Of a stretch of DNA of 64,000 nt, positions 30,895 to 51,862 are shown piece by piece (position 1 is the stretch's first letter; the number at the start of each line of letters is the position of its first letter). Made by a program: the position numbers and the translations under genes. The notes beneath the pieces were generated by a model. It saw only the letters and a program-made list of their open reading frames with translations, was not told where the DNA came from and made no database searches. Location: assembly GCA_016193395.1 (NCBI GenBank), contig JACPSH010000008.1, forward strand, positions 1-64,000, in the 5' to 3' direction. The DNA is from Gammaproteobacteria bacterium. GTDB taxonomy: Bacteria > Pseudomonadota > Gammaproteobacteria > Eutrophobiales > Eutrophobiaceae.

Positions 30895-32640
30895 ATGAGC
30901 AATGCCTGGGACAACGACAAGATTATCCGCGTCGACATGAGCAAGCAGACGGTCGAGCTTGCCCCGTATCCGGGCGAGTGGCGGCTGCTCGGCGGGCGGG
31001 CGCTGTCCGCGCGCATCCTGCTCACGGAGTGCAACCCCAAATGTGACCCGCTGGGGCCGGAGAACGTACTGGTATTTGCGCCCGGATTCATCTCCGGGAC
31101 CTCCGCGCCGACGTCCGGGCGCCTGTCGGTCGGCTGCAAGAGTCCGCTGACCGGCGGCATCAAGGAAGCCAATGTCGGCGGCGAGCCGGGCCAGGACCTG
31201 ATGAAGCTCGGCTGCCGCGCGATCGTGGTCAAGGGCCAGCCGAAGGATCGCGAGAAGCGCTGGGGACTGGTCGTGGACAAGGACGAAGTGAAGCTGGTCG
31301 ATGCGACGGAATACAAGGGCATGTGGAACTACGCATCCTGTAAGAAGCTGCTCGCGAATTATCCGGACTCGGCCTCCGCGATCACCATCGGGCCGGCGGG
31401 CGAGATGATGCTCAAGGGCGCCTCGGTCGGCTGCACGGATCGGACCAAGGGCCGCCACCCGGCCCGGCACGCCGCGCGAGGCGGCGTAGGCGCAGTCATG
31501 GGTTCGAAGTGCCTGAAATGGGTGCTGGTCGACCCGGGCAAGGCGCCCCTGCGCAAACCGGCGGACACCAAGGGATTCACCGCGTACATGAAGGAATATA
31601 GCAAGGGTTACGTGGGCAGCAAGCGCCACCAGACCTTCATGTACGGCACCAGCGCAGTCGTGCCGATCGCGAACATGCTTTGGACCCTGCCGTACAAGAA
31701 CCGCACCGAGGGCCGCAATCCGCATTTCGAGGGGCTGGACGGCGCGAAGATCCGCGAAACCTTCGAGACGCGCGGCGGCGGCATGCACAACTGCATGACC
31801 GGCTGCATCGTCAGGTGTTCGAACATCGTGCATGACAAGGACGGCAATTACGTCACTTCCGCGCTCGAATTCGAGACCCTCACGCTGCTCGGTTCCTGCT
31901 GCGACATCAACCACTGGGAGGACGTGGCGGACATGGACCGGCTCTGCGACGAGCTCGGCCTCGACACGATCGAAACGGGCGCGGCGATTGCCGTGCTCAT
32001 GGACTCCGGCGGCATGAAGTACGGCGACGCCGAGGGGGCGAAACGGCTGCTGCGCGAGGACGTCGCGAAGGGAACGGATCTCGGCCGCATGGTGGGCAAT
32101 GGGGCGCTCGCGGTCGGCACCGCGCGCAAGCACAAACGCATCCCGGTCGCGAAAGGCCAGGCCATGCCGGCCTGGGATCCGCGCCCGCTGAAGGCCTCCG
32201 GCGTGACCTACTGCACGAGCCCCATGGGCGCCGACCACACAGCCGGCCTGGTGATCGATCCGGTGATCACGGGTCCGGATGCCGCGAAGGCCTCCCAGGA
32301 GATCCAGATCATCATCGCGGTTTGCGATTCGTCCGGTTTCTGCATGTTTCTCGGCCCGACCCTGGATGACACGCGCAAGTTTTACAGCCTGTTCCTTGGC
32401 GATGAAGTCACGCGCGAGCAGATCGGCGACCTCGGCTGGCAGTGCCTGGCCGATGAATGGACCTTCAACGAGCGCGCCGGCTTTACCGCGAAGGACGACG
32501 ACATCGCGGCTTGCCTGCGCGAGGAGGGCATCGGGCCGGACCATTCCATGAAGTTCGACATCCCGGCGGATGTTGTTGCCCTGGTGAAAATCCGGCAGCC
32601 CGCCGCCGAATCGCTCTATACGAAATCGCCCGCCGGCTGA
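30895..32640 (+). CDS. Aldehyde:ferredoxin oxidoreductase family (tungsten/molybdopterin) protein
   Basis: The 581-residue protein is of the AOR family. The N-terminal domain contains LLGGRALSARILLTE and APGFISGTSAPTSGRLSVGC, with SPLTGGIKEANVGG forming the pterin-binding face. Cys300, Cys304 and Cys308 (CMTGCIVRC) plus a later Cys in VCDSSGFCMFLGP are candidates for the [4Fe-4S] cluster; the first spacing differs slightly from the archaeal C-x2-C-x3-C. AOR enzymes use a tungsto- or molybdo-bispterin to interconvert aldehydes and acids with ferredoxin. No ferredoxin, tungsten transporter or pterin gene adjoins it. Length matches the family. Substrate unknown. Confidence 0.85.
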   Translation: MSNAWDNDKIIRVDMSKQTVELAPYPGEWRLLGGRALSARILLTECNPKCDPLGPENVLVFAPGFISGTSAPTSGRLSVGCKSPLTGGIKEANVGGEPGQDLMKLGCRAIVVKGQPKDREKRWGLVVDKDEVKLVDATEYKGMWNYASCKKLLANYPDSASAITIGPAGEMMLKGASVGCTDRTKGRHPARHAARGGVGAVMGSKCLKWVLVDPGKAPLRKPADTKGFTAYMKEYSKGYVGSKRHQTFMYGTSAVVPIANMLWTLPYKNRTEGRNPHFEGLDGAKIRETFETRGGGMHNCMTGCIVRCSNIVHDKDGNYVTSALEFETLTLLGSCCDINHWEDVADMDRLCDELGLDTIETGAAIAVLMDSGGMKYGDAEGAKRLLREDVAKGTDLGRMVGNGALAVGTARKHKRIPVAKGQAMPAWDPRPLKASGVTYCTSPMGADHTAGLVIDPVITGPDAAKASQEIQIIIAVCDSSGFCMFLGPTLDDTRKFYSLFLGDEVTREQIGDLGWQCLADEWTFNERAGFTAKDDDIAACLREEGIGPDHSMKFDIPADVVALVKIRQPAAESLYTKSPAG

Positions 32641-32701: not shown

Positions 32702-32728
32702 CTTCGCTTTCTTTGATTGAGGTGCACC

Positions 32729-33295
32729 ATGGCAAAGTTTCCTTCCCTGCCGCCGATTGCGCAACTGACGGACGTATTCCGGTGCTTTCCGAAGGGGCTG
32801 TGGCCGCTGTGTGAATACCATGACGCGGTCCTGCGCGCCCCTTCGCCGCTGGCGATTGCCGAGCGCGAATTGATTGCCGCCTACGTATCAGGCGTCAATG
32901 CCTGCAATTACTGCCACGGCGCCCACAAGATCTACGCGGAAATACACGGGATCGATCCGGCAATGTTCGATCGACTCATGGCGGACCCGCAGTCGGCGGC
33001 CATCGATCCGAAGTTGCTGCCAATCCTGAATTATGTGAGAAAGCTGACCTTGTCGCCGTCCTCCGTCAGGGACAGCGACGCCGCGGCGGTCTATGCCGCC
33101 GGCTGGAGCGAGGAGGCGCTGTATGACGCCGTCTGCGTTTGCGCGCTGTTCAATTTCATGAACCGCATCGTCGAGGGCTGCGGTGTGGTCACGGACGCCG
33201 CGATCCAGGCGCAGCAACGTGAACGCGTGGCCGGGAGCCGGGACAATCCGGAGACCTACCGCAACTTCGCCAGAATGCTGGGTGTCACGGGATGA
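32729..33295 (+). CDS. AhpD-like carboxymuconolactone decarboxylase family protein (copy 1)
   Basis: The 188-residue all-helical protein has the AhpD redox motif in ERELIAAYVSGVNACNYCHG: Cys59-x-x-Cys62 with His66 after it. Peroxidase-related proteins of this family reduce hydroperoxides or act with disulfide partners. The ATG at 32729 follows a GAGGTG ribosome site. The stop overlaps the start of the PLP decarboxylase gene (ATGA). A second, N-terminally truncated copy is fused to a methyltransferase fragment at about 36550-37041. Confidence 0.87.
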   Translation: MAKFPSLPPIAQLTDVFRCFPKGLWPLCEYHDAVLRAPSPLAIAERELIAAYVSGVNACNYCHGAHKIYAEIHGIDPAMFDRLMADPQSAAIDPKLLPILNYVRKLTLSPSSVRDSDAAAVYAAGWSEEALYDAVCVCALFNFMNRIVEGCGVVTDAAIQAQQRERVAGSRDNPETYRNFARMLGVTG

Positions 33296-34794
33296 CGGCG
33301 GGACATCGCCCGGCTGCCGGAGGCAGCGAACCGCCGGTTGACGCGACGCTGACGGATTGCATCCGGGACCTCGAAAGGCAGGCCGCTGTGCTCGAACCCG
33401 GGCCGGGCGAGCGCCGCGCCGAGCTCGACGCTGTCAACGCCTATCTGGAGGAATTCCTGTCCACGCTGGATTCACGCCCGGCGTCCATGGCAGCGCGGCA
33501 GCAGGCGCGGGGAATCCTGGATTCGCCCATCGCGGAGCAGGGCATGGACATGGGGTCCGTACTGCAACTGTTCCGCGAGAACGTGAATGATGTGGGCGCG
33601 AGCCACGCCTCCGGCCGTTTCCTGGGTTACATCCCGCTCGGCGGCCTCTATCCCGGCGCGCTCGGGGAGTTTCTCGCCGCGGTCACCAACAAGTATTCCG
33701 GAGATTTTTCCTGCTGCCCGGGCGCCGCGCACATGGAATACCAGGTGCTGCGCTGGATCGCGGATCTGCTCGGTTATCCGAAAGGCGCCGCGGGCAACCT
33801 GAGTTCAGGCGGCAGTATCGGCATCCTCACGGCGACCGTGACCGCGCGCGACGCACATGGCTTGCGGGCCCCGGACTACGAGCGCGCGGTAGTGTATCTG
33901 ACGCCGCACACGCACCACGCGATGTACAAGGCGCTGCGCATCGCCGGGCTCGGCGGATGCGTGCAGCGGCGCATCGCCGTCGATGCCGCCTTCCGCATGG
34001 ATGCCGACGCGCTGGATGCGGCGGTCGCAAAGGACAAGAAGGACGGGCTAATCCCGTGGCTGCTCGTTGGCTCGGCCGGCACGACCGACGTCGGCAGCAT
34101 CGATCCGCTGGATGCGCTCGCGGAAACGGCCGATCGCCACGGCCTCTGGTTCCAGGTAGACGCCGCTTACGGCGGGTTCTTCATGTTGAGCGAGTTGGTG
34201 CGCGATCGCTTCCGGGGCATCGAGCGATCGAACTCGCTGGTCATCAACCCGCACAAAGGTCTGCACTCGCCGATGGGCGTCGGCGCGGTGCTGGTGGCCG
34301 AGGGCGAACGGCTCTACCAGTCGCACTACCATACCGCGGCGTATCTCCAGGATACGAAATACGGCGGTGAGCAGGAAACCTCGCCCGCCGACATGGGGCC
34401 GGAGTTGACCCGGCCGTTCCGCGCGCTGTCCGTCTGGCTGCCGCTCAAGCTGCTCGGCGTCGCGCCGTTCCGGGCCGCGCTGAGCGAGAAGATCCTGCTG
34501 GCGCGCTACGCCTACGAGAAGCTCGCGGAATTCGAGTATATCGAGTTGGGCCCGTTCCCGGAGCTTTCCGTCGTCGCCTTCCGCTTCGTGCCGAAGGACG
34601 GGGACGCGGACGAATTTAACCGCCGGCTGGTCGAGGCGGTGCGCGAAGATGGGGCCGTATACCTGACGTCCACGGTGCTGAACGGCCGCTACATGATCCG
34701 CATCGCCATCCTGTCCTTCCGCACGCACCGGGATGATGTTGACCTGGCGCTGGAGAAAATCAGGTATTACGTCAATAGCCTGGCAAAGTCATGA
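33292..34794 (+). CDS. PLP-dependent group II decarboxylase (aromatic amino acid/tyrosine decarboxylase-like)
   Basis: The 500-residue enzyme has the fold-type-I group II decarboxylase pattern: GAAHMEYQVLRWIADLLGYP, NLSSGGSIGILTATVTARDA, the HxH region in LTPHTHHAMYKAL, VGSAGTTDVGSIDPLDALAE, WFQVDAAYGGFF with the PLP-binding Asp, and the Schiff-base Lys in INPHKGLHSPMG. Relatives decarboxylate aromatic amino acids or glutamate, or act as aldehyde synthases. The natural substrate is unresolved. Being translationally coupled to the AhpD-like gene suggests a shared oxidative or amine-producing step. Confidence 0.87.
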   Translation: MTAGHRPAAGGSEPPVDATLTDCIRDLERQAAVLEPGPGERRAELDAVNAYLEEFLSTLDSRPASMAARQQARGILDSPIAEQGMDMGSVLQLFRENVNDVGASHASGRFLGYIPLGGLYPGALGEFLAAVTNKYSGDFSCCPGAAHMEYQVLRWIADLLGYPKGAAGNLSSGGSIGILTATVTARDAHGLRAPDYERAVVYLTPHTHHAMYKALRIAGLGGCVQRRIAVDAAFRMDADALDAAVAKDKKDGLIPWLLVGSAGTTDVGSIDPLDALAETADRHGLWFQVDAAYGGFFMLSELVRDRFRGIERSNSLVINPHKGLHSPMGVGAVLVAEGERLYQSHYHTAAYLQDTKYGGEQETSPADMGPELTRPFRALSVWLPLKLLGVAPFRAALSEKILLARYAYEKLAEFEYIELGPFPELSVVAFRFVPKDGDADEFNRRLVEAVREDGAVYLTSTVLNGRYMIRIAILSFRTHRDDVDLALEKIRYYVNSLAKS

Positions 34795-37070: not shown

Positions 37071-38717
37071 GTGCCAGGTCCAGCCGGTCGCGAGCGATCT
37101 CTCTACTTCGATTATCCGCGCTATTCCTTCGTCAGGCCGCCCGAGCTCCGCGGCGAGTCCCTGCGCCACGCCGTCGCGATCGCGGGGGCCGGTCCCGTGG
37201 GCCTCGCGGCGGCCCTCGAGCTCGCGCGCCACGGCGTCGCCAGTGTGGTGCTGGACGAGAAGGACACGGTCAACGACGGCAGCCGCGCCATCTGCGTCGC
37301 GCGGCACAGCCTCGAGATCTTCCAGCAGCTCGGCGTCTCGGAACGTTTCACGGCCAAGGCGCTCGGCTGGACGCACGGGACCTCGTATTACGGCACGCGA
37401 CCGGTGTACCGGCTGGAAATGCCGCACTCCGAGCAGGAACGTTTCCACCCGATGTACAACATCCAGCAGCAGTACATCGAAAAGTTCCTGGTGGATCACG
37501 CCGCAGGCCAACCGCTGGTCGAATTGCGCTGGCAGAGCCGCATCGCGGAAACGCGTCTGCGGCCTGATGGCGTCGAGCTCCGCATCGAAACACCCGGTGG
37601 TAGCTATGCGTTGCATGCCGATTACCTGCTCGCGGCCGACGGCGCGCGCAGTAGCGTCAGGCATTCGCTGGGACTGCCGCTGCGGGGCGAAGCCTACGAG
37701 GGCCGCTACGTCATCGTGGACATCGGGATGCCCTCCGACTACCCGGTCGAGCGCCGCGCATTCTTCGATCCGCCCGCCAATCCCGGCTCCACCGTGCTGC
37801 TGCACCGGCAGCCCGACGACATCTGGCGCGTCGACTACCAGCTCCGCGACGACGAGGACGAGGATCAGGCTCTCGAGGAGAAGAACATTCGTGCGCGCGT
37901 CGGTGCGATCCTGGAAATGGTGGGCGAAAAAGGTCCGTGGGAGCTCGAATGGTGGAGCCTGTACAAGGCCTACACGCTGGCGCTGGACGACTACCGGTGC
38001 GGGCCCGTCCTGTTCATCGGTGACGCGGCGCACCTGGTGCCCATCTTCGGCGTGCGCGGGCTCAATTCCGGCCTTGCCGATGCCGCGAACGCGGGCTGGA
38101 AGCTGGCTTACGTGATCCGCGGCCGGGCATCGCCCGCGCTGCTCGATTCTTATTCGCCGGAGCGGCGCGGCGCGACGCTGGAGATCTTCGAGAATTCCGC
38201 GCGCAGCACGCGCTTCATGACACCGCCGACCCGCGGCTACCGGCTCATGCGCGACGCGGCGCTGGCGCTCGCGGTCGAGCACGAATTCACGCGCCCGCTG
38301 ATCAACCCGCGTCAGTCGCGTCCTTACACCTACGCGGAGAGTCCGCTCACTTGGCAGGAGGGTGATGCGGAGTTCACGGCAGGCCCGCGCGCCGGGGCAC
38401 CGCTCTTCAATCAGCGTCTCGGTCCGGACGACTACCTCCTGGATCGCCTGGGCGCCGGATTCAGCGGCCTGTGTTTTTTCGCGGATGCGCGCGTACCGGA
38501 ACCGGTCCGGCAGCTGTTCGATGAATTCTCCGCGGGCGGAGAACGCTTCACCCCGATCGTTGTCGATGAACGCTGCGCGCACGTGTTCGCGGCCTACGGT
38601 GCCATCGATGGCAGCTTCTACCTGGTGCGTCCGGATCGGCACGTGTGCGCCCGCTGGCGCGAAATCGATATCGACCAGGCAAGGCGCGCGCTGGGGCGCG
38701 CCCTGGGAGGGAGTTGA
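37071..38717 (+). CDS. FAD-dependent aromatic monooxygenase (MhpA/PheA-TfdB class)
   Basis: The 548-residue group A flavin monooxygenase has the dinucleotide-binding GAGPVGLAAALELARHG near residue 40, the DG motif YLLAADGARSSVRHSLG, and the GD motif GPVLFIGDAAHLVPIFGVRG, followed by a C-terminal thioredoxin-like domain as in 3-(3-hydroxyphenyl)propionate and phenol hydroxylases. It uses NAD(P)H and O2 to hydroxylate an aromatic ring, possibly displacing a substituent. I chose GTG at 37071, the only plausible in-frame start before the FAD motif that does not enter the preceding gene. It lies 29 bp after the AhpD-like end and one base before the DUF2783 gene. Confidence 0.88.
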   Translation: MPGPAGRERSLYFDYPRYSFVRPPELRGESLRHAVAIAGAGPVGLAAALELARHGVASVVLDEKDTVNDGSRAICVARHSLEIFQQLGVSERFTAKALGWTHGTSYYGTRPVYRLEMPHSEQERFHPMYNIQQQYIEKFLVDHAAGQPLVELRWQSRIAETRLRPDGVELRIETPGGSYALHADYLLAADGARSSVRHSLGLPLRGEAYEGRYVIVDIGMPSDYPVERRAFFDPPANPGSTVLLHRQPDDIWRVDYQLRDDEDEDQALEEKNIRARVGAILEMVGEKGPWELEWWSLYKAYTLALDDYRCGPVLFIGDAAHLVPIFGVRGLNSGLADAANAGWKLAYVIRGRASPALLDSYSPERRGATLEIFENSARSTRFMTPPTRGYRLMRDAALALAVEHEFTRPLINPRQSRPYTYAESPLTWQEGDAEFTAGPRAGAPLFNQRLGPDDYLLDRLGAGFSGLCFFADARVPEPVRQLFDEFSAGGERFTPIVVDERCAHVFAAYGAIDGSFYLVRPDRHVCARWREIDIDQARRALGRALGGS

Positions 38718-38718
38718 G

Positions 38719-38913
38719 ATGGAGGGCAGACTGCCGGAAGCGGACCTGGAGCGGGCCTACGAGCTCATCGCGGAAGCCATCGATCGCGCCGGCGCGGAGA
38801 AGGAATCGCGCTTTCTCGCGCGGCTCTGCCTCGCGCTGGCCGCGCAGCTCGAGGGGCTCGACCGGGTCGAGACGGCTATCCGGATCTCCGAAAGCGATCC
38901 CGCGGTCCGCTGA
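38719..38913 (+). CDS. DUF2783-like small protein
   Basis: The 64-residue helical protein (LPEADLERAYELIAEAIDRA, then SRFLARLCLALAAQLEGLDR) resembles DUF2783 proteins, short helical products encoded next to flavin monooxygenases and MBL hydrolases of aromatic degradation clusters. It starts one base after the monooxygenase stop, with GGGAGG upstream, so it is in the same operon. A second DUF2783 protein lies at 61592. Function unknown; perhaps an accessory subunit or chaperone. Confidence 0.7.
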   Translation: MEGRLPEADLERAYELIAEAIDRAGAEKESRFLARLCLALAAQLEGLDRVETAIRISESDPAVR

Positions 38914-38933: not shown

Positions 38934-41132
38934 CTAGTTGCGCCTGTCGGCGAGCGGCCGGGCCGGATAATAATGCAGCGGTACGGGATCCCCGCGCGCC
39001 TTCCGCGCGCGCGCCTGCGCCGGTGTTTCGACCCTGGCCGCGGCGGCGAGTCCCGCCTTCCGATCCACGGGGAAGGGAGCATCCGCCGCATCCGGCGGCG
39101 GCATCATGTCGGCGTGGAAGTAGGCGACCTTGTGTTTCGCCGGGTCCACGCGCCGGTGCACGTCGAGGTCGCGCTCGTTCGCGCCGTGCGGCGCGGCCAC
39201 GCAGATTCCGTCGACAATCTCCAGATCCAGCCACCACTTCTTGTGGGGGTTGCGCACGCCGTGGCCGAGCCAGTCGTCGAGGCGCGTGGCGACAGGCACC
39301 AGCAGCGGCTTGAGCCACATCGCATTGATGCCGAGCCAGCTTGCAATCTGCGTATACAGCGGACCGTCCAGCGTCACGACCTTGTTCAGCGGGCAGGTTT
39401 TCATGCAGCGCCCGCAGGCCAGCCCGCGCTTGTTGGTGAGCCGGTAGCGGGTGCAGCGATCCACGTCCGGCTTCCAGATCTCGTAGCCGTTGAACATGAC
39501 CTTGCCGCCGAAGGGAATCGCGTCGCAGGGACATTCGCGCGCGCACTTGCGGCAGTTGGAGCAGAAATACTGGAGGCCGAAATCCACGGGGCGGTCGGGA
39601 ACCAGCGGCAGGTCGGTGGTCATCACGACGGACTTGAAGCGCGGGCCGACGAAGGGGTTGAGGACCAGTTCCCCGATGCGGCTGAGCTCGCCCAGTCCCG
39701 CCCAGAGGATCAACGGGATGTGCAGCACGTCGGAATCGGCGTTGGTCTGCGGCCGCGCGGGAAATCCCAGGGACCGCAGGAAGTCGGCCATGACCCCGGC
39801 GATCTCGGCACCGCGCAGGTAGGCACGCATGGACTGCGCGCCCGAGATGAAGTCATCGCCGGACGCACCTTCCATGGTCTCGTAGCCCTGGTCGATGAGC
39901 ATGACGACGGCATAGCGGTGATAGGGCTCGATGGGCGTGCCGTCCTCCTTGTGGGAGAACCAGGCGTAGGCCGGGATCTCGCAGATCCCGGTAAGGTCCG
40001 AACCCAGGAAATAGGACAGCGACTTGAGCGCCCGCGTGTTCGCTTCCGGGTCGGCGCAGCCGGGATCGGCGCGCTCCGCGACCTGGCCGTTCTGCATCGG
40101 CACCATGCCGCGGATGAGATTGATCATCGCGGCGGGCAGGGGATGCTTGTAGGCGAAGCGCCAGCGTTCCTTCTGCGCCTTGTCCCCCAGGTCGCCCTTC
40201 AGCGCGCGTTCGAAGAAGGCCGCGCGCTTCGGCACTCTCGGCACCTCGTCCTCGAGAATGAGCGTCGTCGGCCGGTCAACGCGCCGCACCGTTTCCATGG
40301 GATAGCGGCTGAGATGCGTGGGGCGGTGTGCCTGGCGCAGGCGTTCGATACCCGACACTGCGCCTCCGATCCCCAGCCAGTAGGCGATGCCCTTCGCATC
40401 CAGCGCGCGCGCCGCGAGCGGCTCATCGGTCGCGAGTTCGTAGTTCGTGGTCACGGCCGCGAGCGAGAAGTCGGAGCCCGTATAGGGATTCACGATGTCT
40501 CCGTCCCTGCGGATGGCGAGACCGGCGAGGACCGCGAGCCGATCCAGATCCACGCCGCCTGTCTCCGCATCGTGCGCTTCGGCTGCAAATCCCATCTGGC
40601 GGATCTGCCCGGCGATGCAGGCCGCGATCTCGAAGGCGCGCATCGCGGCCGTCGCCGCCACGCAGCCCTCGACCCATGCGCGCGCCGGGTTGTCCGCTTC
40701 CGGCAGGCGGGGATGTTCCACCAGGATCACGACTGCGTGCGTGTGTGCCGGCGCGCTGGCGCCGTTCAGCCAGCAGGATGGCGCGATCCGGCAGATGCCC
40801 ACCTGGCCCGCATCCAGGAAGTACGCCGCGCCCTTGATGTCGACGGTACGCCGCGCCCGATCCGCCGGTACGGGTGCCCGGGCAGGCGCCGGCTCGCCGG
40901 CGCGGAAGCGCCGGAACAGATCGTGATACCTGCGGACCGCGGCGCCGAACGGAGAGTCGGTTCGCGCCGGCACACGCCGCACGACGGATTCGGAACCGCG
41001 CTCGCGCCCGCCCGGGTCCGGTTCCCGCGGCAGGCGTTCCAGCGGGTAGGGCCCCAGGTGATACGGTCGGGTCGCGTTGGAGAAGAAGATCACAGCGGCA
41101 GAGCCATCGAGCCTGAGAACAGTATGCAGCAT
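38934..41132 (-). CDS. Reductive dehalogenase homologue (RdhA-like, cytoplasmic/catabolic type)
   Basis: The 732-residue protein has the C-terminal hallmark of RdhA: GPRFKSVVMTTDLPLVPDRP followed by two [4Fe-4S] sites. The first is Cys524-x2-Cys527-x2-Cys530-x3-Cys534-Pro; the second is Cys560 with Cys573-x2-Cys576-x3-Cys580-Pro. The middle part (about 250-520) corresponds to the cobalamin-binding domain. No twin-arginine signal is present and no RdhB anchor is nearby, so it should be soluble and cytoplasmic, like the oxygen-tolerant catabolic enzymes typified by Nitratireductor NpRdhA (about 700 residues). It lacks the C-terminal ferredoxin-reductase fusion of BhbA-type enzymes. Known members remove halogens from aromatics via cobalamin; epoxyqueuosine reductase is a related but much shorter family. 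Divergent from the Rieske gene. The electron donor is not evident. Confidence 0.82.
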   Translation of the reverse strand: MLHTVLRLDGSAAVIFFSNATRPYHLGPYPLERLPREPDPGGRERGSESVVRRVPARTDSPFGAAVRRYHDLFRRFRAGEPAPARAPVPADRARRTVDIKGAAYFLDAGQVGICRIAPSCWLNGASAPAHTHAVVILVEHPRLPEADNPARAWVEGCVAATAAMRAFEIAACIAGQIRQMGFAAEAHDAETGGVDLDRLAVLAGLAIRRDGDIVNPYTGSDFSLAAVTTNYELATDEPLAARALDAKGIAYWLGIGGAVSGIERLRQAHRPTHLSRYPMETVRRVDRPTTLILEDEVPRVPKRAAFFERALKGDLGDKAQKERWRFAYKHPLPAAMINLIRGMVPMQNGQVAERADPGCADPEANTRALKSLSYFLGSDLTGICEIPAYAWFSHKEDGTPIEPYHRYAVVMLIDQGYETMEGASGDDFISGAQSMRAYLRGAEIAGVMADFLRSLGFPARPQTNADSDVLHIPLILWAGLGELSRIGELVLNPFVGPRFKSVVMTTDLPLVPDRPVDFGLQYFCSNCRKCARECPCDAIPFGGKVMFNGYEIWKPDVDRCTRYRLTNKRGLACGRCMKTCPLNKVVTLDGPLYTQIASWLGINAMWLKPLLVPVATRLDDWLGHGVRNPHKKWWLDLEIVDGICVAAPHGANERDLDVHRRVDPAKHKVAYFHADMMPPPDAADAPFPVDRKAGLAAAARVETPAQARARKARGDPVPLHYYPARPLADRRN

Positions 41133-41239
41133 CGGAGCGGCTTCCGCGCCCGGGCGCGTGCCATAATGAACCGAGTCAGCGGCACGCTGCGGCGCAGCAA
41201 CCGGGGCGGCGGTCGTGCCCGGTCATCGAGGTGAGCGGG

Positions 41240-42337
41240 ATGTCGACGAGCATCGAATCGAAGCGGCGCGAAAAGATCGGCGCCATCGCGACGGCCAGCA
41301 TGGCGAACCGCGCAATGCCGCTGATCCGCAACGCCTGGTACGTGGCGGCGCAGGGTTCGGAGCTCGGGCGCACGCCCATCGCCCGGCAGCTGCTCGAGCG
41401 CAGCGTGGTCCTGTTCCGTAGGGAGAACGGCGAAGCCGTGGCCCTTCAGAATCGCTGCTGCCACCGATCCTTCCCGCTCTCCGAAGGCAGACTCGAGGGC
41501 GATACGCTGGTCTGCCGCTATCACGGTTTTCGCTACAACTGCGAAGGCCGCGTCATCGAAGTCCCGAGCCAGAGTCATCCCCCGGGAGAGATTGGCGTGC
41601 ACTGCTACCCGGTGCGGGAGAAGAGTCCTTTCGTCTGGTTCTGGGCGGGCGATCCCGGGAAGGCTGACGAAGCATGCCTGCCGCACCAGGAATGGCTGGA
41701 GTCCGCGGACTGGGATCGCTACGCCGGTTATCTGCATATCAATGCCAGCTACGTGCACATGCACGAGAACCTGCTCGATCTCTCGCACCTGAGCTTTCTC
41801 CACGAGAAGACCTTCGGCACGCCCGAGTACGCGCGCGCGCCGATCGAGATGACGGTCGAGCCGCCCAACTTCGAGGTGTGGCGGCACGTCGAGTGCGAGC
41901 TCCCCGCGATCTACTCGAAACCGCTGGGGTGGACGGGCCAGAAGGCGATCCGGAGTTCCGGCGCGCAGTTCGTGGGGCCCGGCCTGCATGTGAACACGGG
42001 CGTCTTCCGCAATCTGGAGATCCCTGAATCCGGGCAGGAGCCGAAACCGATGGTAAAGGTCGCGCAGCTCATCACGCCGGAGTCGCGGGACGCCACGCAT
42101 TACTGGTACTGCCTCAGCCGCAACTTCGCCCGCCATGACGAGGGCGTGACGGAATTCATGAAGAACGCGCAGTACGCCGCTTTCAGCGAGGACGTCTATG
42201 CCCTCGAGCACATCCGCGGGATGCAGGATCTCGGAGAGCCTCCCGGCTTCCTCGAGATCAACGTCGCCGCCGACCGTCCCGGCGTGGAGATGCGGCGCTA
42301 CCTCAAGCAGCTCTCGGACGCCGAGCAGGCGGGCTGA
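41240..42337 (+). CDS. Rieske non-heme iron oxygenase, alpha subunit (VanA-like)
   Basis: The 365-residue protein has the Rieske [2Fe-2S] ligands Cys73, His75, Cys92 and His95 (RCCHRSFPLSEG, VCRYHGF) and the mononuclear iron motif in HENLLDLSHLSFLHEKTFG. The compact length and single-component architecture fit the VanA/dicamba-monooxygenase group, which demethylate or hydroxylate aromatic substrates using a separate reductase. No reductase is adjacent. The ATG at 41240 has GAGGTG six bases upstream. The gene is divergent from the dehalogenase homologue, 107 bp apart. Confidence 0.9.
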   Translation: MSTSIESKRREKIGAIATASMANRAMPLIRNAWYVAAQGSELGRTPIARQLLERSVVLFRRENGEAVALQNRCCHRSFPLSEGRLEGDTLVCRYHGFRYNCEGRVIEVPSQSHPPGEIGVHCYPVREKSPFVWFWAGDPGKADEACLPHQEWLESADWDRYAGYLHINASYVHMHENLLDLSHLSFLHEKTFGTPEYARAPIEMTVEPPNFEVWRHVECELPAIYSKPLGWTGQKAIRSSGAQFVGPGLHVNTGVFRNLEIPESGQEPKPMVKVAQLITPESRDATHYWYCLSRNFARHDEGVTEFMKNAQYAAFSEDVYALEHIRGMQDLGEPPGFLEINVAADRPGVEMRRYLKQLSDAEQAG

Positions 42338-42588: not shown

Positions 42589-45012
42589 ATGACGTTTTCA
42601 TATCCCGCTCGTTCCGGATTGTTGCCGCCGCTCGCGCTCGGCGTGTTCGCGCTGGCCGCCACGCCGCTGCACGCGCAGGTACTCGAGGAAATCATCGTCA
42701 CGGCGCAGAAGCGCGAGCAGAGCGTCCAGGATGTCGGGATCTCGGTCACGGCCTACACCGGCACGCAGCTGCACGAGCTGGGCTTGACCGATACCGTCGA
42801 TCTGACCGCCATGACCCCGGGGTTGCAATACACGGTGCCGAACGCGGAGGGCAGCCAGATCAACTTCTTCCTGCGCGGCGTCGGACTCAACGAGGTCGCG
42901 GATGCGAACGAGAACCCGGTCGCGGTCTACAACGACGAGGTGTACCGGGCGGCGATGGGCGGCCTGCACCTCCAGATGTTCGACATGGAGCGGGCCGAGG
43001 TGCTGCGCGGACCGCAGGGAACGCTGTTCGGCCGTAACACCTCCGGCGGCCTCATTCACTTCATCTCGAACAAGCCCACCGACGACTTCATGGCCTATGT
43101 TCAGGGCGGCGCGGGTTCCTACGGCGAGTGGAACACCGAGGCGGTGATCAACGGCAGGCTGCTCGACACGCTCGCCGGGCGGCTATCGTTCGCGTACGAC
43201 ACGAACGGCGGTTACGTGGACAACGACTTCCAGGGTACCGATCCGGTGTCGGGCGGCGATCCGGACGATTTCTCCGAATCGAATGCGCTGGCCGGGCGGG
43301 TACAGCTGCTGTGGACGCCGAACGAGGACTTCGACGCGCTGCTCAAGTTTCATTACTCGCACAACCGCGGCCAGGTGGGCGCGTGGCAGAACCAGGCCGC
43401 CACCTTCCCCGTGGTCGGCGGCGCGCCCGATTTCGACAACCGCGTGCCGCTCGGGCCGACCGAGGTGAACCAGTTCTGCCCGGACGGCGCCGGCGGGTTC
43501 ATTCCCGGTCCTGCGCCCGGCACGGACTGCCTCGGCTACCTCGACACCGACGGCGATCCCCACGAGGGCAGCTTCGATCGCGACGGGGACACGGCGGTCA
43601 CGGCGGCGGGCATCGCCGGTACGCTGCACTGGCGGCTGGCGAACGGCTGGGAAGTCACCTCCATCACCGCTTTTGACCATGTGGACCGCACCCAGGAAGA
43701 GGACACCGACGCAAGTCCCAACAGCCTGATCCAGGTGGACTTCAACGCGGTGCCCGAGCAGTTTACGCAGGAGCTGCGGCTGGCGGGCGAGACGGATCGC
43801 CTGCGCTGGCAGGGCGGTTTCTATTACTTCAACTGGGACGTGGAGGGCGATTACCACCTGCGCATCACCGCCGACCCGTTCCTGAACCCCGACTTCCTGC
43901 CGCCGGTGTTCTTCTTCGATGTGGATTACAAGCAGGACACCGAGTCCTGGTCCGTCTTCGGCCAGGCGGAATACGATCTCACCGATCAGTTCACGCTGAT
44001 CGGCGGTATCCGCTACACCGAAGAAAACAAGGAAATGGACTACCAGATGGTCGACACGACGCCGTTCTGCCTGATTTTCGGCGTGGCCGGGAGCTGCATC
44101 GGGGCGTTCACTGATTTCGGGCTCACCGCCAACTTCCCGAGTTCGATCCGGCCGACCCGGGATCACGCGATCTTGTTCAACAAGGATACGGTCGGCGATC
44201 TGGCGGAGCACGACAAGAGCAACATCACGGGGCTCATCGAGCTGGACTGGAAGCCCACCGACGACCTGCTCATCTACGGCAAGTACTCGCGTGGCGTGAA
44301 GTCGGCCGGATTCAACTCCACCTTCATGGACGCAAGCTTCATCTTCTTCAGCAACACGCCGGAGACCGTTCCCTTCGACGACGAGACGCTGACGAGCTAC
44401 GAGGGCGGCTTCAAGGCGACGCTGTTCGACGGCACGACGCGACTCAATGCCTCGGCGTTCTACTACGACTACGAGGACTTCCAGACTTTCCGATTCGAGT
44501 TCCTGAGTTCGGTGATCTTCAACACGGATGCGGAGATCTGGGGCGGGGAAATCGAGCTGCAGACGAGTCCCTGGGAGGGATGGGACTTCCTGCTCGGCGC
44601 CTCGTTCCTCGACGCGGAGGCCAAGGCCATTCCGACCACGGGCACGGGCGCCCTGGTGGACCGGACCCCGGTGGCGGCGCCGGACGTGACCCTGAACGGC
44701 ATGGCACGCTACGAATGGCCGATGCTTGGCGGGAACATGGCCGTCGTGGCCAGCTTCAATTACCAGGATGAGACCTACTACGACATCCAGAACTACGACA
44801 TTGCGAAGGCGGATGATTACATCGTCGGCAATGTGCGCCTGCAATGGCGGTCGCCGGACAATGCCTGGGAGCTCGCGGCCTGGGTGAACAACCTCGCGGA
44901 CGAGGAGTATCTCACCTATACCTTCGATTTCACGGGCGTCGCGGGCTTCAACCAGCTCCACTTCGGCCCGCCGCGCTGGTTCGGTGGCTCGGTTCGCTAT
45001 ACCTGGCAGTAG
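42589..45012 (+). CDS. TonB-dependent outer-membrane receptor
   Basis: The 807-residue protein has a signal peptide (ending TPLHAQ, about residue 27) and the TonB-box/plug start LEEIIVTAQKREQSVQDVGI, as in the receptor group expanded in aromatic- and sterol-degrading proteobacteria. The plug domain (RGPQGTLFGRNTSGGLIHFI) is followed by a 22-strand barrel ending in an aromatic-rich strand (WFGGSVRYTWQ). It probably imports a hydrophobic or iron-bound compound using TonB energy. A very good AGGAGGT ribosome site precedes the ATG. Context beside the Rieske and dehalogenase genes suggests uptake of their substrate. Confidence 0.93.
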   Translation: MTFSYPARSGLLPPLALGVFALAATPLHAQVLEEIIVTAQKREQSVQDVGISVTAYTGTQLHELGLTDTVDLTAMTPGLQYTVPNAEGSQINFFLRGVGLNEVADANENPVAVYNDEVYRAAMGGLHLQMFDMERAEVLRGPQGTLFGRNTSGGLIHFISNKPTDDFMAYVQGGAGSYGEWNTEAVINGRLLDTLAGRLSFAYDTNGGYVDNDFQGTDPVSGGDPDDFSESNALAGRVQLLWTPNEDFDALLKFHYSHNRGQVGAWQNQAATFPVVGGAPDFDNRVPLGPTEVNQFCPDGAGGFIPGPAPGTDCLGYLDTDGDPHEGSFDRDGDTAVTAAGIAGTLHWRLANGWEVTSITAFDHVDRTQEEDTDASPNSLIQVDFNAVPEQFTQELRLAGETDRLRWQGGFYYFNWDVEGDYHLRITADPFLNPDFLPPVFFFDVDYKQDTESWSVFGQAEYDLTDQFTLIGGIRYTEENKEMDYQMVDTTPFCLIFGVAGSCIGAFTDFGLTANFPSSIRPTRDHAILFNKDTVGDLAEHDKSNITGLIELDWKPTDDLLIYGKYSRGVKSAGFNSTFMDASFIFFSNTPETVPFDDETLTSYEGGFKATLFDGTTRLNASAFYYDYEDFQTFRFEFLSSVIFNTDAEIWGGEIELQTSPWEGWDFLLGASFLDAEAKAIPTTGTGALVDRTPVAAPDVTLNGMARYEWPMLGGNMAVVASFNYQDETYYDIQNYDIAKADDYIVGNVRLQWRSPDNAWELAAWVNNLADEEYLTYTFDFTGVAGFNQLHFGPPRWFGGSVRYTWQ

Positions 45013-47530: not shown

Positions 47531-48346
47531 TCATGTGGAGCCTCCCAGCTCCTTCATGCCTTCGGCTTCTTCCAGGAACGCCGGACTTTCCGGCAGCGTC
47601 GAGCCGCCGTCCACGACGATGGTCTGCCCGGTGACGTAGCGGGCCTCATCCGAGGCGAGATACACCATCGCCCAGCCGATGTCTTCCGGTGCGCCGATGT
47701 AGCCCATGGGGATGTATTTCGCCATCTGCTTCATGCCTTCTTTGTCGGCGAGCAGCTCCATCGCGGCGGTACGGATGTAGCCCGGCTCCACGCCGTTGAC
47801 CGTGATGCCGTGGCGCGCGAGCTCGATGGCCGCGGTGCGGATGAAGGCATTGATGCCGCCTTTCGACGCCGCATAGTAGGAAGTTCCGGGCATGGCCACG
47901 CGCGGCCCCGTGACGGAGGAGGTGAACAGCAGCCGTCCGGAACCCTGCTTCCTGAAATACGGGATGCAGAGCTTCGACAGGCGGAAGCATGCCTTGAGAT
48001 TCACCGCGAGAACCGTCTCGAGATCCGCTTCGGAATAGTTCTCCACCAGACCGCCGAGGAAGGACGCAGCGTTGTGAACCATGATATCGATGCGTCCGAA
48101 CCGGTCCACGGCCGTCCCGACGACCTGCTGGATGTCTTCCTCCCGCCCGATATCGACCGTGCAGAGCACGGCCTCGCCGCCGCCGCGGGTGATTTCATCC
48201 ACCAGTTCCCTGCCGTATTTCTCGGTCCGGGTTGCCGCGACGACCTTCGCCCCTTCGCGGGCGAACAGCTTCGCGATCGCCGATCCGATCCCGCGTCCGG
48301 CGCCGGTCACGATGGCCACCCGGTCCTGCAGACGTCTGTTTTCCAT
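47531..48346 (-). CDS. Short-chain dehydrogenase/reductase
   Basis: The 271-residue classical SDR has the cofactor motif VTGAGRGIGSAIAKLF, NAA in VHNAASFLGG, and the catalytic Ser (FTSSVTG), Tyr and Lys (YYAASKGGINAF). The TRTEK after the second strand suggests NADP or NAD ambiguity. It oxidises or reduces an alcohol/carbonyl, plausibly an aldehyde formed by the amine-processing enzymes around it. ATG at 48346 has GGGAGGA upstream. It heads the leftward operon and is divergent from the amine dehydrogenase operon, 182 bp apart. Confidence 0.9.
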   Translation of the reverse strand: MENRRLQDRVAIVTGAGRGIGSAIAKLFAREGAKVVAATRTEKYGRELVDEITRGGGEAVLCTVDIGREEDIQQVVGTAVDRFGRIDIMVHNAASFLGGLVENYSEADLETVLAVNLKACFRLSKLCIPYFRKQGSGRLLFTSSVTGPRVAMPGTSYYAASKGGINAFIRTAAIELARHGITVNGVEPGYIRTAAMELLADKEGMKQMAKYIPMGYIGAPEDIGWAMVYLASDEARYVTGQTIVVDGGSTLPESPAFLEEAEGMKELGGST

Positions 48347-48528
48347 GTCTTCCTCCCGATGATCGGCGGACGGGGCGATCCCCGTCGCCTGCTGAATTCT
48401 AACGTGCGCCACGGGCCGAATGGGCGTCCCGATACGGACCATAGGTATCCGGTCCGTTTGGACCGCCAGCGGGTTCTTCGCTATATTGCCGCACAAACCG
48501 CCCCGCCGACTTCCCGCCCGAGCCCCGC

Positions 48529-49788
48529 ATGATTCAGAGTAAAGCACAAGCGTTGCTCCGCAACTGCCTTCATGACGGCGCCAGGACGCGCGACCGCGCG
48601 GCGGGACGTGCCCGGAGGGGTTGCACGACGTCCCTTGTCTTGTTTTTCCTGTGCCTGCCGCTCTCCCTGGTCCGCGCGGAACTGCCGGCGGAGAAGCTGG
48701 GCCGCGTGGAAACCCTGCCGGTCCCGTACCCCGCGCACTGGTTCTTCGCGCACGACGCCGCCTTCCACCACATGCTGGACGGCAAGATGATTCTCCTGGA
48801 TGCCGATGCGGAAACGCAGGGCGCGCAAATCAAGGGCATGTTCAACGGCTCCTTCGTCCCGCATTTCACCCAGTCGCGGACGCGCCCCGAACTCTACGTC
48901 TCGGAAACCTATTATTCGCGCGGCAACCGCGGCGAGCGCACGGACGTGGTCACGGTCTACGACATGGCGACGCTCTCACCCCAGGCGGAGATCATCCTGC
49001 CCGGCGCAAAGCGCGCCGGCTTGTTGCCCGGCCGGTACAACCTGCATCTCACCAACGACGAGTCGCTGTTGTTGAGTTTCAATTTCGGCCCCGCCACCTC
49101 GGTCGCGGTCATCGACGTCAAGGCACGCCGGGTGCTGAAAGAGATCCCGTTACCCAGCTGCGCGCTCATGTATCCGACCGGAACGCGTGGCTTCAGCTCG
49201 CTCTGCGGCAACGCCTCCCTTATCTCCTTCCAGCTCGATGCCAGCGGGGAGGTCGCCTCGCGCCGCGTCGTCGAGCCGTTCTTCGATATCGACGAGGACG
49301 CGTTGTTCGAGAAGCCGGCGATCATCGACGGCACCGGCTATTTCCCGACTTTCCTTGGCAACGTGCAGGAGATCAATTTCCGCGGCGATCACGCCGTGCC
49401 GGGCAAGCGCTGGAGCCTCGTTTCAGAAGCGGAACGCGCGCAAAGCTGGCGGCCGGGCGGCCTCCAGCTCACCGCCGCCGACGCCGCAGGGCGCATGTAT
49501 GTCCTCATGCATCCGGAGGGGCGCGAGGGCAGCCACAAGGACGGCGGTCCGGAAGTGTGGGTCTACGACGCGCAGCAGCGCGCCCGCGTGCAGCGCGTCG
49601 TGCTAAAGAACCGGGGGATCACCGTGGAGGTCACGCAGGACCGCGATCCGCTGCTGCTCGTGGTGAATACCGAGATGAACGTGGACGTGTATCGCGCGGC
49701 GGACGGAGGGTACCTGCGCACGCTCAGCGATTTCGGGCAGGAGACGCCGCTGGTCCTGCATGCGATCCGGCGTGGACCGAAGGAATGA
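48529..49788 (+). CDS. Amine dehydrogenase heavy chain (MauB/AauB type)
   Basis: The 419-residue protein has an N-terminal signal (TTSLVLFFLCLPLSLVRAEL) after a basic stretch and the seven-bladed beta-propeller of methylamine/aromatic amine dehydrogenase heavy chains. The conserved stretches LPVPYPAHWFFAHDAAFHHM, SETYYSRGNRGERTDVVTVY and MHPEGREGSHKDGGPEVWVY are typical. The propeller holds the TTQ-bearing light chain in the periplasm. It begins the rightward operon; the light chain gene starts seven bases after its stop. Methylamine versus aromatic-amine specificity is not decidable from this chain alone. Confidence 0.92.
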   Translation: MIQSKAQALLRNCLHDGARTRDRAAGRARRGCTTSLVLFFLCLPLSLVRAELPAEKLGRVETLPVPYPAHWFFAHDAAFHHMLDGKMILLDADAETQGAQIKGMFNGSFVPHFTQSRTRPELYVSETYYSRGNRGERTDVVTVYDMATLSPQAEIILPGAKRAGLLPGRYNLHLTNDESLLLSFNFGPATSVAVIDVKARRVLKEIPLPSCALMYPTGTRGFSSLCGNASLISFQLDASGEVASRRVVEPFFDIDEDALFEKPAIIDGTGYFPTFLGNVQEINFRGDHAVPGKRWSLVSEAERAQSWRPGGLQLTAADAAGRMYVLMHPEGREGSHKDGGPEVWVYDAQQRARVQRVVLKNRGITVEVTQDRDPLLLVVNTEMNVDVYRAADGGYLRTLSDFGQETPLVLHAIRRGPKE

Positions 49789-49795
49789 CTGGGCA

Positions 49796-50320
49796 ATGAA
49801 CTGGCTCGACCGTCTCGCCGAACGCTGTACGCGTCGCGTCGCGAGGAACTCTTCCAGACGCAGTTTTCTCGCGCTGCTCGGCAGCGCGCTGGTCGGGGGC
49901 GCGGCGGTTCCGCTGCTGCCGGTGGCGCGTGCTGCGGATGCCGGGGCTTCCGGCGGGACGGCGGCAGACCCCGGCGATCCCACGAAATGCGATTACTGGC
50001 GCAACTGCGCCATCGACGGGTATTTGTGTGCCTGCTGCGGCGGCACGGTGAATACCTGCCCGCCCGGAACCGAGATGTCGCCCATCACCTGGATCGGAAC
50101 CTGCCGCAACCCCGCCGACGGCCGGGATTACATCATTTCCTACAACGACTGCTGCGGGAAAACTTCCTGTGGGGCCTGCCTGTGCCAGCGAAACGAGGGC
50201 GACCGGCCGGTTTACCGCCCACACACGGCGAACGATTACAACTGGTGCCTGGGCACCGCGAGCGCCGTGTACAACTGCACCGTCACGGTCATCCTGGGGA
50301 CCGCGGCCCCGAAATCCTGA
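49796..50320 (+). CDS. TTQ-containing amine dehydrogenase light chain (MauA/AauA type)
   Basis: The 174-residue precursor has a twin-arginine signal (SSRRSFLALLGSALVGG) and the cysteine-rich light-chain fold. CDYWRNCAIDGYLCACCGG, CPPGTEMSPITW and NDCCGKTSCGACLCQRN match Paracoccus MauA. The two tryptophans that crosslink to tryptophan tryptophylquinone are Trp99 and Trp150, 51 residues apart as in Paracoccus (57 and 108). The catalytic/biogenesis aspartates Asp74 and Asp118 are at the equivalent spacing (32 and 76). It oxidises primary amines to aldehydes and ammonia in the periplasm. Coupled to the heavy chain by a 7-bp gap. Confidence 0.95.
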   Translation: MNWLDRLAERCTRRVARNSSRRSFLALLGSALVGGAAVPLLPVARAADAGASGGTAADPGDPTKCDYWRNCAIDGYLCACCGGTVNTCPPGTEMSPITWIGTCRNPADGRDYIISYNDCCGKTSCGACLCQRNEGDRPVYRPHTANDYNWCLGTASAVYNCTVTVILGTAAPKS

Positions 50321-50337: not shown

Positions 50338-50835
50338 ATGCGGGCGGTCGTCTTCCTTCTCCTGCTGTGCGGCATCGCCGACCCGGGCCGGGCAGCGGAT
50401 GCGCGGCACGAGGACGGGCGCGCCCGGATCGACTACATGCTCAACTGCCAGGGCTGCCACCAGCCGGACGGAGCGGGATCGCCTGGCGCGGTGCCGCGGC
50501 TGCGCGATCACCTCGGCGGTTTTGTGCGCGTACCGGGCGGACGCGAATACCTGGTGCGCGTTCCGGGGGCCGCCCTCTCCGCGCTCGATGACGCCGGTCT
50601 CGCGGCGGTGCTGAACTGGATGCTGCGCGACTTCAGCGCGGCCGAACTGCCGGCGGATTTCGTTCCCTACGATGCCGCGGAAGTCGGCCGCCTGCGGCGT
50701 GAACCGCTGGCGGATGCCGAGAGCGAACGCCGCATCCTGCTGCAACGCATGGAAGTGCTCGAAGAGCGATCCCGCCCGGAACCCGGCGGCGACAGGGACT
50801 CGCCTGCATCGACGGAACACGGGAAGTCCTACTGA
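50338..50835 (+). CDS. Periplasmic monoheme c-type cytochrome
   Basis: The 165-residue protein has a signal peptide (VVFLLLLCGIADPGRAAD) and one heme site, Cys37-x-x-Cys40-His41. A likely axial Met lies in VLNWMLRDFSAAELP, and a charged C-terminal tail follows. It starts 17 bp after the light-chain stop and is the probable electron acceptor of the quinoprotein, taking the place of amicyanin or azurin. It has no sequence features of the diheme MauG peroxidase. Confidence 0.85.
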   Translation: MRAVVFLLLLCGIADPGRAADARHEDGRARIDYMLNCQGCHQPDGAGSPGAVPRLRDHLGGFVRVPGGREYLVRVPGAALSALDDAGLAAVLNWMLRDFSAAELPADFVPYDAAEVGRLRREPLADAESERRILLQRMEVLEERSRPEPGGDRDSPASTEHGKSY

Positions 50836-50838
50836 CGC

Positions 50839-51312
50839 GTGAACGCCGTGAGCGAGCTGTTCGACAATCCCATGGGCACCGACGGATTCGAGTTCATCGA
50901 GTACACGGCGCCCGATCCCGAGCTGCTGCGCAGCATGTTCGCGAAGATGGGATTCCCGGCGACGGGCAGGCATCGCAGCAAGAACGTGACGCGGCATTCG
51001 CAGGGCGATATCAATTTCATCATCAACGCGGAGCCGGACAGCTTCGCCCAGCGCTTCGCCCGGGAACACGGGCCGTCGATCTGTGCGATCGCGTTCCGGG
51101 TCAACAACGCGGCCACGGCCTACGCCCGTGCGCTGCACCTGGGCGCAACCGCTGCGGAGAGCAGGCCGGGGCCCATGGAACTCAACATTCCGGCCATCGA
51201 GGGGATCGGCGGCAGCCGGATCTACCTGGTCGATCGCTATGGCGACCGGTCGATTTACGACGTCGATTTCGATCCCGTCGAGTTGCGCCGCGGCGTTCTC
51301 GAAGAGGGCTGA
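50839..51312 (+). CDS. Stand-alone HPPD N-terminal domain (VOC superfamily)
   Basis: The 157-residue protein matches the N-terminal half of gammaproteobacterial 4-hydroxyphenylpyruvate dioxygenase: NPMGTDGFEFIEYTAPDPEL, GFPATGRHRSKNVTRHSQGD, EHGPSICAIAFRVNNAATAY and IPAIEGIGGSRIYLVDRYGD. HPPD is about 350 residues and binds iron with residues of its C-terminal domain. That half is absent here, so dioxygenase activity is not expected. The frame stops cleanly and the next gene (mauE) starts four bases later, indicating an intact operon member rather than a random break. It starts with GTG three bases after the cytochrome stop. Role unknown. Confidence 0.82.
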   Translation: MNAVSELFDNPMGTDGFEFIEYTAPDPELLRSMFAKMGFPATGRHRSKNVTRHSQGDINFIINAEPDSFAQRFAREHGPSICAIAFRVNNAATAYARALHLGATAAESRPGPMELNIPAIEGIGGSRIYLVDRYGDRSIYDVDFDPVELRRGVLEEG

Positions 51313-51316
51313 ACGG

Positions 51317-51862
51317 ATGCCGCTCATGGACCCCCTTCCCGCGGTCGCCGCAGCCCTCGTGCTGAGTTTCGTGTTTCTGAGCGCGGCAATGCACAAGGCC
51401 GGGGACCTGAAACGCTTCGAGGCGACGCTGGCGAACTACCGGGTGCTGCCCGCAATCCTAGTCCCCGGGACGGCGCGCCTGGTTCCTGTAATCGAAGCCG
51501 TGGTCGGCGCGGCTTTGCTGATGCCGCCGATATCCAGGATGGCGGCGATCGCGGCGGCGCTGCTGCTTGCCGCCTACACGCTGGCCATTGGCGTCAATCT
51601 CCTGCGGGGACGGCGAGCGATCGATTGCGGTTGCGGAGCGCCGGGCCGACGGCAGACCCTCAGCGGCTGGTTGCTGATCCGCAACGGCGCGCTGCTGGGG
51701 CTGAGCTGGGCATGCAGCATCCCCGTCTCCGATCGGGCGCTGCACTGGATCGACTGGAGCGTGATTGTTCCCGCGGCCGCGGCAGCGTGCCTGTTCTATG
51801 CAGCGGCGGACCAGTTGCTCGCAAACCGGGATCTGCTCGTGCGCGCAGGCGGCGATGGCTGA
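51317..51862 (+). CDS. mauE: MauE, amine dehydrogenase assembly membrane protein
   Basis: The 181-residue inner-membrane protein has LSFVFLSAAMHKAGDLKRFE at the start, ANYRVLPAILVPGTARLVPV, and LAIGVNLLRGRRAIDCGCGA with the Cys-Gly-Cys pair, parallel throughout to the orphan copy at 24034. With MauD it is thought to introduce the six disulfides of the light chain. It overlaps mauD by eight bases. The ATG at 51317 (or 51326) is close to the stop of the HPPD-like gene. Confidence 0.88.
   Translation: MPLMDPLPAVAAALVLSFVFLSAAMHKAGDLKRFEATLANYRVLPAILVPGTARLVPVIEAVVGAALLMPPISRMAAIAAALLLAAYTLAIGVNLLRGRRAIDCGCGAPGRRQTLSGWLLIRNGALLGLSWACSIPVSDRALHWIDWSVIVPAAAAACLFYAAADQLLANRDLLVRAGGDG

Follow-up and report, generated by a model that had tools for sequence, protein, structure and literature searches.

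An unfused reductive dehalogenase of the NpRdhA type encoded among aromatic-amine and O-demethylase-like genes in an uncultured gammaproteobacterial family

The physiological substrate and the electron donor of unfused catabolic reductive dehalogenases (RDases) are both unsettled, and a gammaproteobacterial locus that pairs such a gene with oxygen-dependent neighbours raises the question of what the enzyme would act on and what would reduce it. The locus lies in a stretch of 64,000 nucleotides (hereafter the window), in which an open reading frame at 38934..41132 on the reverse strand, here called rdh, encodes 732 amino acids. Judged by family and by active-site sequence, the product is a full-length catabolic reductive dehalogenase, unfused and of the NpRdhA type, with a vestigial N-terminal B12-like domain, a cobalamin domain and two [4Fe-4S] motifs (CSNCRKCARECP and CGRCMKTCP). 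The original prediction had reported both ferredoxin-like clusters and a TDLPLVPD segment, and these are indeed present, the latter within the stretch TTDLPLVPD. Homologues begin MIFFSN, so the true start may be a GTG at 41093, 39 bases inside the given ATG. No Tat-like RR motif is seen in the N-terminus and no RdhB-like small frame in the ORF list adjoining rdh, which bears out the earlier claim that a Tat signal and an RdhB partner are lacking. As far as its sequence goes, the product is best explained as a cytoplasmic enzyme dependent on cobalamin and two [4Fe-4S] clusters; it is presumably an oxygen-tolerant dehalogenase. Cobalamin supply is plausible, because one cobalamin riboswitch precedes genes for a BtuB-like receptor and an adenosyltransferase. 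Within the 64,000-nt window, neither Rfam matches nor tRNA were found.

The product matches the NCBIfam model TIGR02486 "reductive dehalogenase" with 170.9 bits (cut-off 160.35) and scores 28 bits with TIGR00276 (QueG), far below the cut-off of 200. Searched with phmmer against all PDB chains, it retrieves NpRdhA (E ~1e-208, residues 14-711, ~50% identity over the whole chain), followed by PceA-type enzymes at ~1e-25 and QueG at 2e-5. The AlphaFold2 model (pLDDT 85.6, pTM 0.91) superposes on NpRdhA with a Z of 45.5 and 2.1 A over 670 residues, compared with a Z of 24 for PceA-type enzymes and 14 for QueG, and Foldseek gives a TM-score of 0.88 against NpRdhA. Both the vestigial N-terminal duplicate of the cobalamin domain and the functional core are present, according to the full-length alignment and the fold match to NpRdhA (model residues 16-715). 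Phylogenetic placement, proposed in the original prediction as a check, puts the product with NpRdhA and the fused BhbA-type catabolic enzymes (support 0.98), apart from PceA and QueG, in a core-domain tree of 126 sequences; its nearest neighbours are proteins of the relatives G003 and G019 (support 0.93).

The same results bear on three other identities. A relative of the epoxyqueuosine reductases, for which the weak TIGR00276 match might speak, is ruled out by profile, tree and fold, all of which lead to the RDases, and the genome has a separate QueG of its own (489 bits, contig C34), leaving this reading a negligible probability. An RDase serving organohalide respiration would have the fold and cofactor motifs in common with the rdh product, but it is rejected on profile, tree and fold as well; the missing Tat motif and RdhB-like ORF and the aerobic gene setting also speak against it, and we give it only a very slight chance. 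A fused, self-sufficient BhbA-type RDase is likewise ruled out, as the product carries neither a C-terminal reductase nor a Fer2 domain and its frame ends where NpRdhA ends. The original prediction was right that a fused reductase is lacking, however, this is no special trait, since NpRdhA is unfused too and catabolic RDases have been split into fused and unfused subfamilies, with NpRdhA named among the unfused (Fisher et al. 2023, PMC10463259).

At the active site, mapped on NpRdhA numbering, S422, M423, Y426, N452, K488 and R552 are all kept, with S422, Y426, K488 and R552 corresponding to Ser434, Tyr438, Lys500 and Arg564 here, and the catalytic Tyr and Lys/Arg that were to be compared with NpRdhA are thus in place. 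Neither of the outcomes named in the original prediction as refuting it, grouping with epoxyqueuosine reductases or loss of the catalytic Tyr, was obtained, and its main call is upheld. Differences from NpRdhA are found at A419 (Gly), P311 (Ala) and K307 (Arg); Gly at position 419 is the rule, occurring in 90 of 95 homologues. S422, Y426, K488 and R552 are invariant in the 95 homologues, as are the cluster cysteines in the homologue alignment. In NpRdhA crystal structures, S422, K488 and R552 bind the phenolic OH and Y426 is positioned as proton donor, and a K488Q variant is inactive (PMC7565698). In PceA and the short RdhA-like proteins of the set, position 488 is Arg, and position 552 is mostly occupied by Trp or some other residue. 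These residues weigh on the idea of a non-dehalogenating corrinoid Fe-S reductase, in which the NpRdhA fold would serve a new reaction. We found no assayed member reported in the 60-70% identity subclade, and the genome offers no direct evidence of halogenated substrates, but every halophenol-binding or proton-donor residue known from mutagenesis or structure is kept, and S422, K488 and R552 are wholly or partly missing in the PceA-type and short RdhA-like proteins of the same alignment. We consider a non-dehalogenating function improbable.

The supposed rarity of such enzymes did not survive the search, in which at least 586 related stretches were found in the species-level genome collection. 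Their identity to the rdh product ranges from 71% (a groundwater gammaproteobacterium) down to 49% (Nitratireductor pacificus itself, L081), and the labels of their records include Alpha-, Beta- and Gammaproteobacteria and Acidimicrobiia, among others. Of 398 genomes sampled from the phylum, 21 have TIGR02486 matches. One relative, G033, has five dehalogenase paralogues (L091, L101, L105, L107, L108), one of which is fused, has 1115 aa and a Fer2 domain, and lies close to an FAA hydrolase. The dehalogenase match in another, G044 (L090; G044:C40:39536-41713), has one TAA inside. The rdh product adds one more member to an established kind of enzyme, in a context for which we found no description, and among open-licence papers we found none that ties RDases to an amine dehydrogenase, to tyramine or to a dicamba-type O-demethylase. 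The main interest of the locus is this conserved aromatic-amine and O-demethylase-like context, together with a short list of possible electron donors.

The oxygen-dependent neighbours named in the original prediction are real. Divergent from rdh and 99 bp apart, a Rieske oxygenase with a VanA_C domain is encoded at 41231..42337 (+); its closest solved relative is the dicamba O-demethylase DdmC, which it matches over its full length (1.8e-37, residues 31-366). On the other side, an FAD-dependent ring monooxygenase of the PRK08132 subfamily at 37140..38717 (+), with an uncertain start at about 37050, is 70% identical to a copy near the closest rdh relative. It is followed by a small protein at 38720..38913 (+), itself lacking a Pfam match, in the position of DUF2783 in the NpRdhA locus. 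Farther out on this side are an aldehyde:ferredoxin oxidoreductase (AOR) family protein (30895..32640, +), which could oxidize aldehydes and be a source of low-potential electrons, and a PLP-dependent decarboxylase related to aromatic amino acid decarboxylases (33292..34794, +). In a frame at 35752-37041 (+), a fragment of a DNA methyltransferase (PF01555, aa 97-254) runs into the C-terminal two thirds of a carboxymuconolactone-decarboxylase-like protein resembling the 32717-33295 product; the frame has the look of a chimera made by recombination or of a join made in assembly. Of the TonB-dependent receptors encoded nearby, one lies beyond the Rieske gene (42589..45012, +); it is probably involved in uptake and is 56-68% identical to receptors near rdh in sister genera. 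Farther on is an SDR oxidoreductase (47531..48547, -), 72% identical to one near the closest rdh relative.

An aromatic amine dehydrogenase completes the neighbourhood. Its heavy chain (48529..49788, +) and its tryptophan tryptophylquinone (TTQ) light chain (49760..50320, +) both have the Alcaligenes faecalis aromatic amine dehydrogenase as best PDB relative. For the heavy chain, aromatic amine dehydrogenase is clearly a closer match than methylamine dehydrogenase (2e-49 vs 2e-36), whereas for the light chain the margin is slight (2e-45 vs 9e-45 for one methylamine enzyme and ~1e-36 for the rest). An adjoining c-type cytochrome (50386..50835, +) is a possible electron acceptor, and maturation proteins follow, one MauE-like (51083..51862, +, with the true start inside the ORF) and one a MauD-like thioredoxin (51765..52445, +) that is 59% identical to a MauD-like protein of locus L150. 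Between the amine dehydrogenase and MauE, at 50839-51312 (+), an HPPD N-terminal domain (PF14696, 157 aa) stands on its own. Another MauD-like thioredoxin, at 24560-25168 (+), is followed by thioesterase-, YceI- and cytochrome-b561-like ORFs, an order that recurs in L150 beside another amine dehydrogenase. Past the window, the same contig carries homogentisate dioxygenase HmgA (672 bits vs a cut-off of 511), maleylacetoacetate isomerase MaiA (273 bits vs 171), an FAA hydrolase and a second PRK08132 monooxygenase. A second amine dehydrogenase copy with a cytochrome c and an EthD protein (L144, 14278-16398) lies on this contig at ~78.3-80.4 kb, ~38 kb from rdh, and many relatives have two to four light-chain copies.

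Is the association of these genes with rdh more than chance? We compared 96 genomes of relatives, 14 with rdh and 82 without it. The TTQ light chain occurs in 13 of the 14 rdh-positive and in 2 of the 82 rdh-negative genomes (Fisher, 4e-13; restricted to the family, 2e-10; with genera as the unit, 0.008), and this co-occurrence within the family is partly shared ancestry. Rdh and the light chain lie less than 20 kb apart in six genomes of four genera (G000, G003, G014, G030, G033, G037), where uniform placement would predict 0.4 (P ~1e-6, ignoring shared ancestry). An orthologue of the Rieske protein (63%) is found in 8/14 rdh-positive vs 0/82 rdh-negative genomes, in seven of these eight at 99 to 2890 bp from rdh, and is absent from the closest rdh relative (G003/L002). 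AOR orthologues are distributed in a similar way (12/14 vs 3/82). The sole rdh-positive relative without a TTQ light chain is G028, in which an AOR-family fragment (L117, 12164-12679; 49% to the window AOR) lies directly beside rdh. In the sister genus g15 (loci L110-L113, L122, L123, L132), one block of up to ~45 kb has paaABCDE next to rdh and also contains paaX, paaZ and paaK relatives, the amine dehydrogenase genes and genes for a nitrilase-family and a flavin amine-oxidase-like protein, and in some members those for the Rieske protein and the TonB receptor. Among the first 80 loci, neighbourhoods are diverse and most relatives outside the family have different neighbours, with no linkage of rdh to amine dehydrogenase, Rieske or paa genes seen outside it. 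The linkage of rdh with aromatic-amine genes is limited to one uncultured gammaproteobacterial family and is partly inherited.

The reading that we favour, with some reserve, is that the locus serves the aerobic use of ortho-halogenated 4-hydroxy- or 4-methoxy-phenethylamine or tyrosine-like compounds through amine oxidation, O-demethylation, cobalamin-dependent dehalogenation and ring cleavage. As gene context suggests the substrate and the order of steps, a halogenated tyrosine- or phenethylamine-type compound would be taken up and, if needed, decarboxylated. The TTQ aromatic amine dehydrogenase would convert the amine to an arylacetaldehyde, to be oxidized to the arylacetate, and the DdmC-like Rieske oxygenase would take off a 4-O-methyl group where there is one, presenting a free phenol to the cobalt. 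By analogy with the family, cob(I)alamin would attack the halogen ortho to the phenolic OH, with Ser434, Lys500 and Arg564 holding the phenolate and Tyr438 giving the proton; the dehalogenase would thereby remove halogen from ortho-halogenated 4-hydroxyphenyl-C2 compounds. The ring could then be processed via an FAD hydroxylase and homogentisate in this genome, or via phenylacetyl-CoA in the sister genus g15. A substrate of the 4-hydroxyphenylacetate type fits the enzyme class, because 3-bromo-4-hydroxyphenylacetate is a substrate of JtRdhA, a member of this clade, which enables Escherichia coli W to grow on it (PMC10463259). Derivatives of bromotyrosine occur in sponges, among them 3,5-dibromo-N,N,N-trimethyltyraminium and the O-methyl form of this compound (PMC3210611).

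The chief competitor is an NpRdhA-type dehalogenase acting on another class of substrate, such as simple halophenols, halobenzoates or chlorinated anisyl fungal metabolites, with the amine genes coincidental in a general aromatic-degradation island. NpRdhA and JtRdhA accept halobenzoates and halophenols, the 80 neighbourhoods are diverse, and a DdmC-like Rieske protein would also suit halogenated methoxybenzoates; however, rdh and the light chain are linked across four genera well beyond what chance is estimated to give, and almost all genomes that have the light chain also have rdh. We take this to be a serious but clearly less likely explanation. The amine dehydrogenase and homogentisate genes could also serve ordinary tyramine, with rdh merely a neighbour. 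The substrate may vary among relatives, because the amine dehydrogenase linkage is confined to the family and most others have different neighbours.

Which protein would reduce the enzyme? Reconstitution of NpRdhA with proteins of its own locus failed (PMC10463259). In the present genome (96.65% complete), a ferredoxin reductase of the NpRdhA type has a best match of only 26%, and a VanB-type reductase was not found. The only protein with an FNR NAD-binding domain that was found in it is PaaE, the reductase of phenylacetyl-CoA epoxidase, whose operon is on contig C48. PaaE has an FNR module with a C-terminal plant-type [2Fe-2S] domain, and this order (reductase, then C-terminal Fer2) matches the tail of the fused RDases; in g15, paaE lies in the same block as rdh. 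Contig C37 encodes a putidaredoxin-reductase homologue (2e-115) and an adrenodoxin-type ferredoxin, the kind of pair that drives DdmC. PaaE and this C37 pair are our candidates for the electron donor, with the AOR as a third and weaker one, only a lead because none was near rdh in the first 80 loci. Other Fer2 proteins of the genome are, besides the adrenodoxin-type ferredoxin, one in a 700-aa frame that looks like a corrinoid-activation protein and three that we read as xanthine-dehydrogenase type. With a small home-made profile, Fer2 was found near rdh only in L002, L003 and L081 among the 80 loci, 35 of which span less than 15 kb. The L002 protein (13918-14373, -; 151 aa frame) lies ~2.7 kb from the closest rdh relative and is a possible electron carrier.

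This genome narrows the questions of substrate and donor, because no FNR-type reductase other than PaaE was found in it and its conserved neighbours suggest aromatic amines, possibly O-methylated. If correct, this would bring an aerobic branch into the natural organohalogen cycle and provide a testable donor for bioremediation enzymes. A bolder and doubtful proposal is that halogenated (4-methoxy)phenethylamines or tyrosines of natural origin are degraded aerobically by a conserved pathway, in which TTQ amine dehydrogenase, DdmC-like O-demethylase and unfused B12 dehalogenase would act in sequence with PaaE as electron source.

Compared with known systems, the rdh product shares the cobalamin and [4Fe-4S] core fold and the Tyr proton donor with the respiratory PceA of Sulfurospirillum and Desulfitobacterium, whereas PceA is Tat-exported, has Arg/Trp for Lys488/Arg552 and lacks the vestigial N-terminal domain. 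BhbA and JtRdhA belong to the same catabolic clade and have the catalytic Tyr-Lys and the phenol-binding Arg, but carry their own C-terminal reductase with a [2Fe-2S] domain. NpRdhA (N. pacificus pht-3B; PDB 4RAS, 6ZXU) is alike in its full-length domain plan, in being unfused, in Y426/K488/R552/S422 and in both [4Fe-4S] motifs, and it differs in the pocket, where Gly replaces A419 and Ala replaces P311 here, as in most of the wider clade. Its locus and the present one have in common a PRK08132-like monooxygenase (34%) and an MBL protein (46%); it also encodes a DUF2783 protein, placed like the small protein here, and an FAA hydrolase that is 55% identical to the copy downstream of the window. 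A linked ferredoxin reductase and two ferredoxins are found there but not here, whereas the linked genes here are those of an aromatic amine dehydrogenase and of a Rieske protein resembling O-demethylases.
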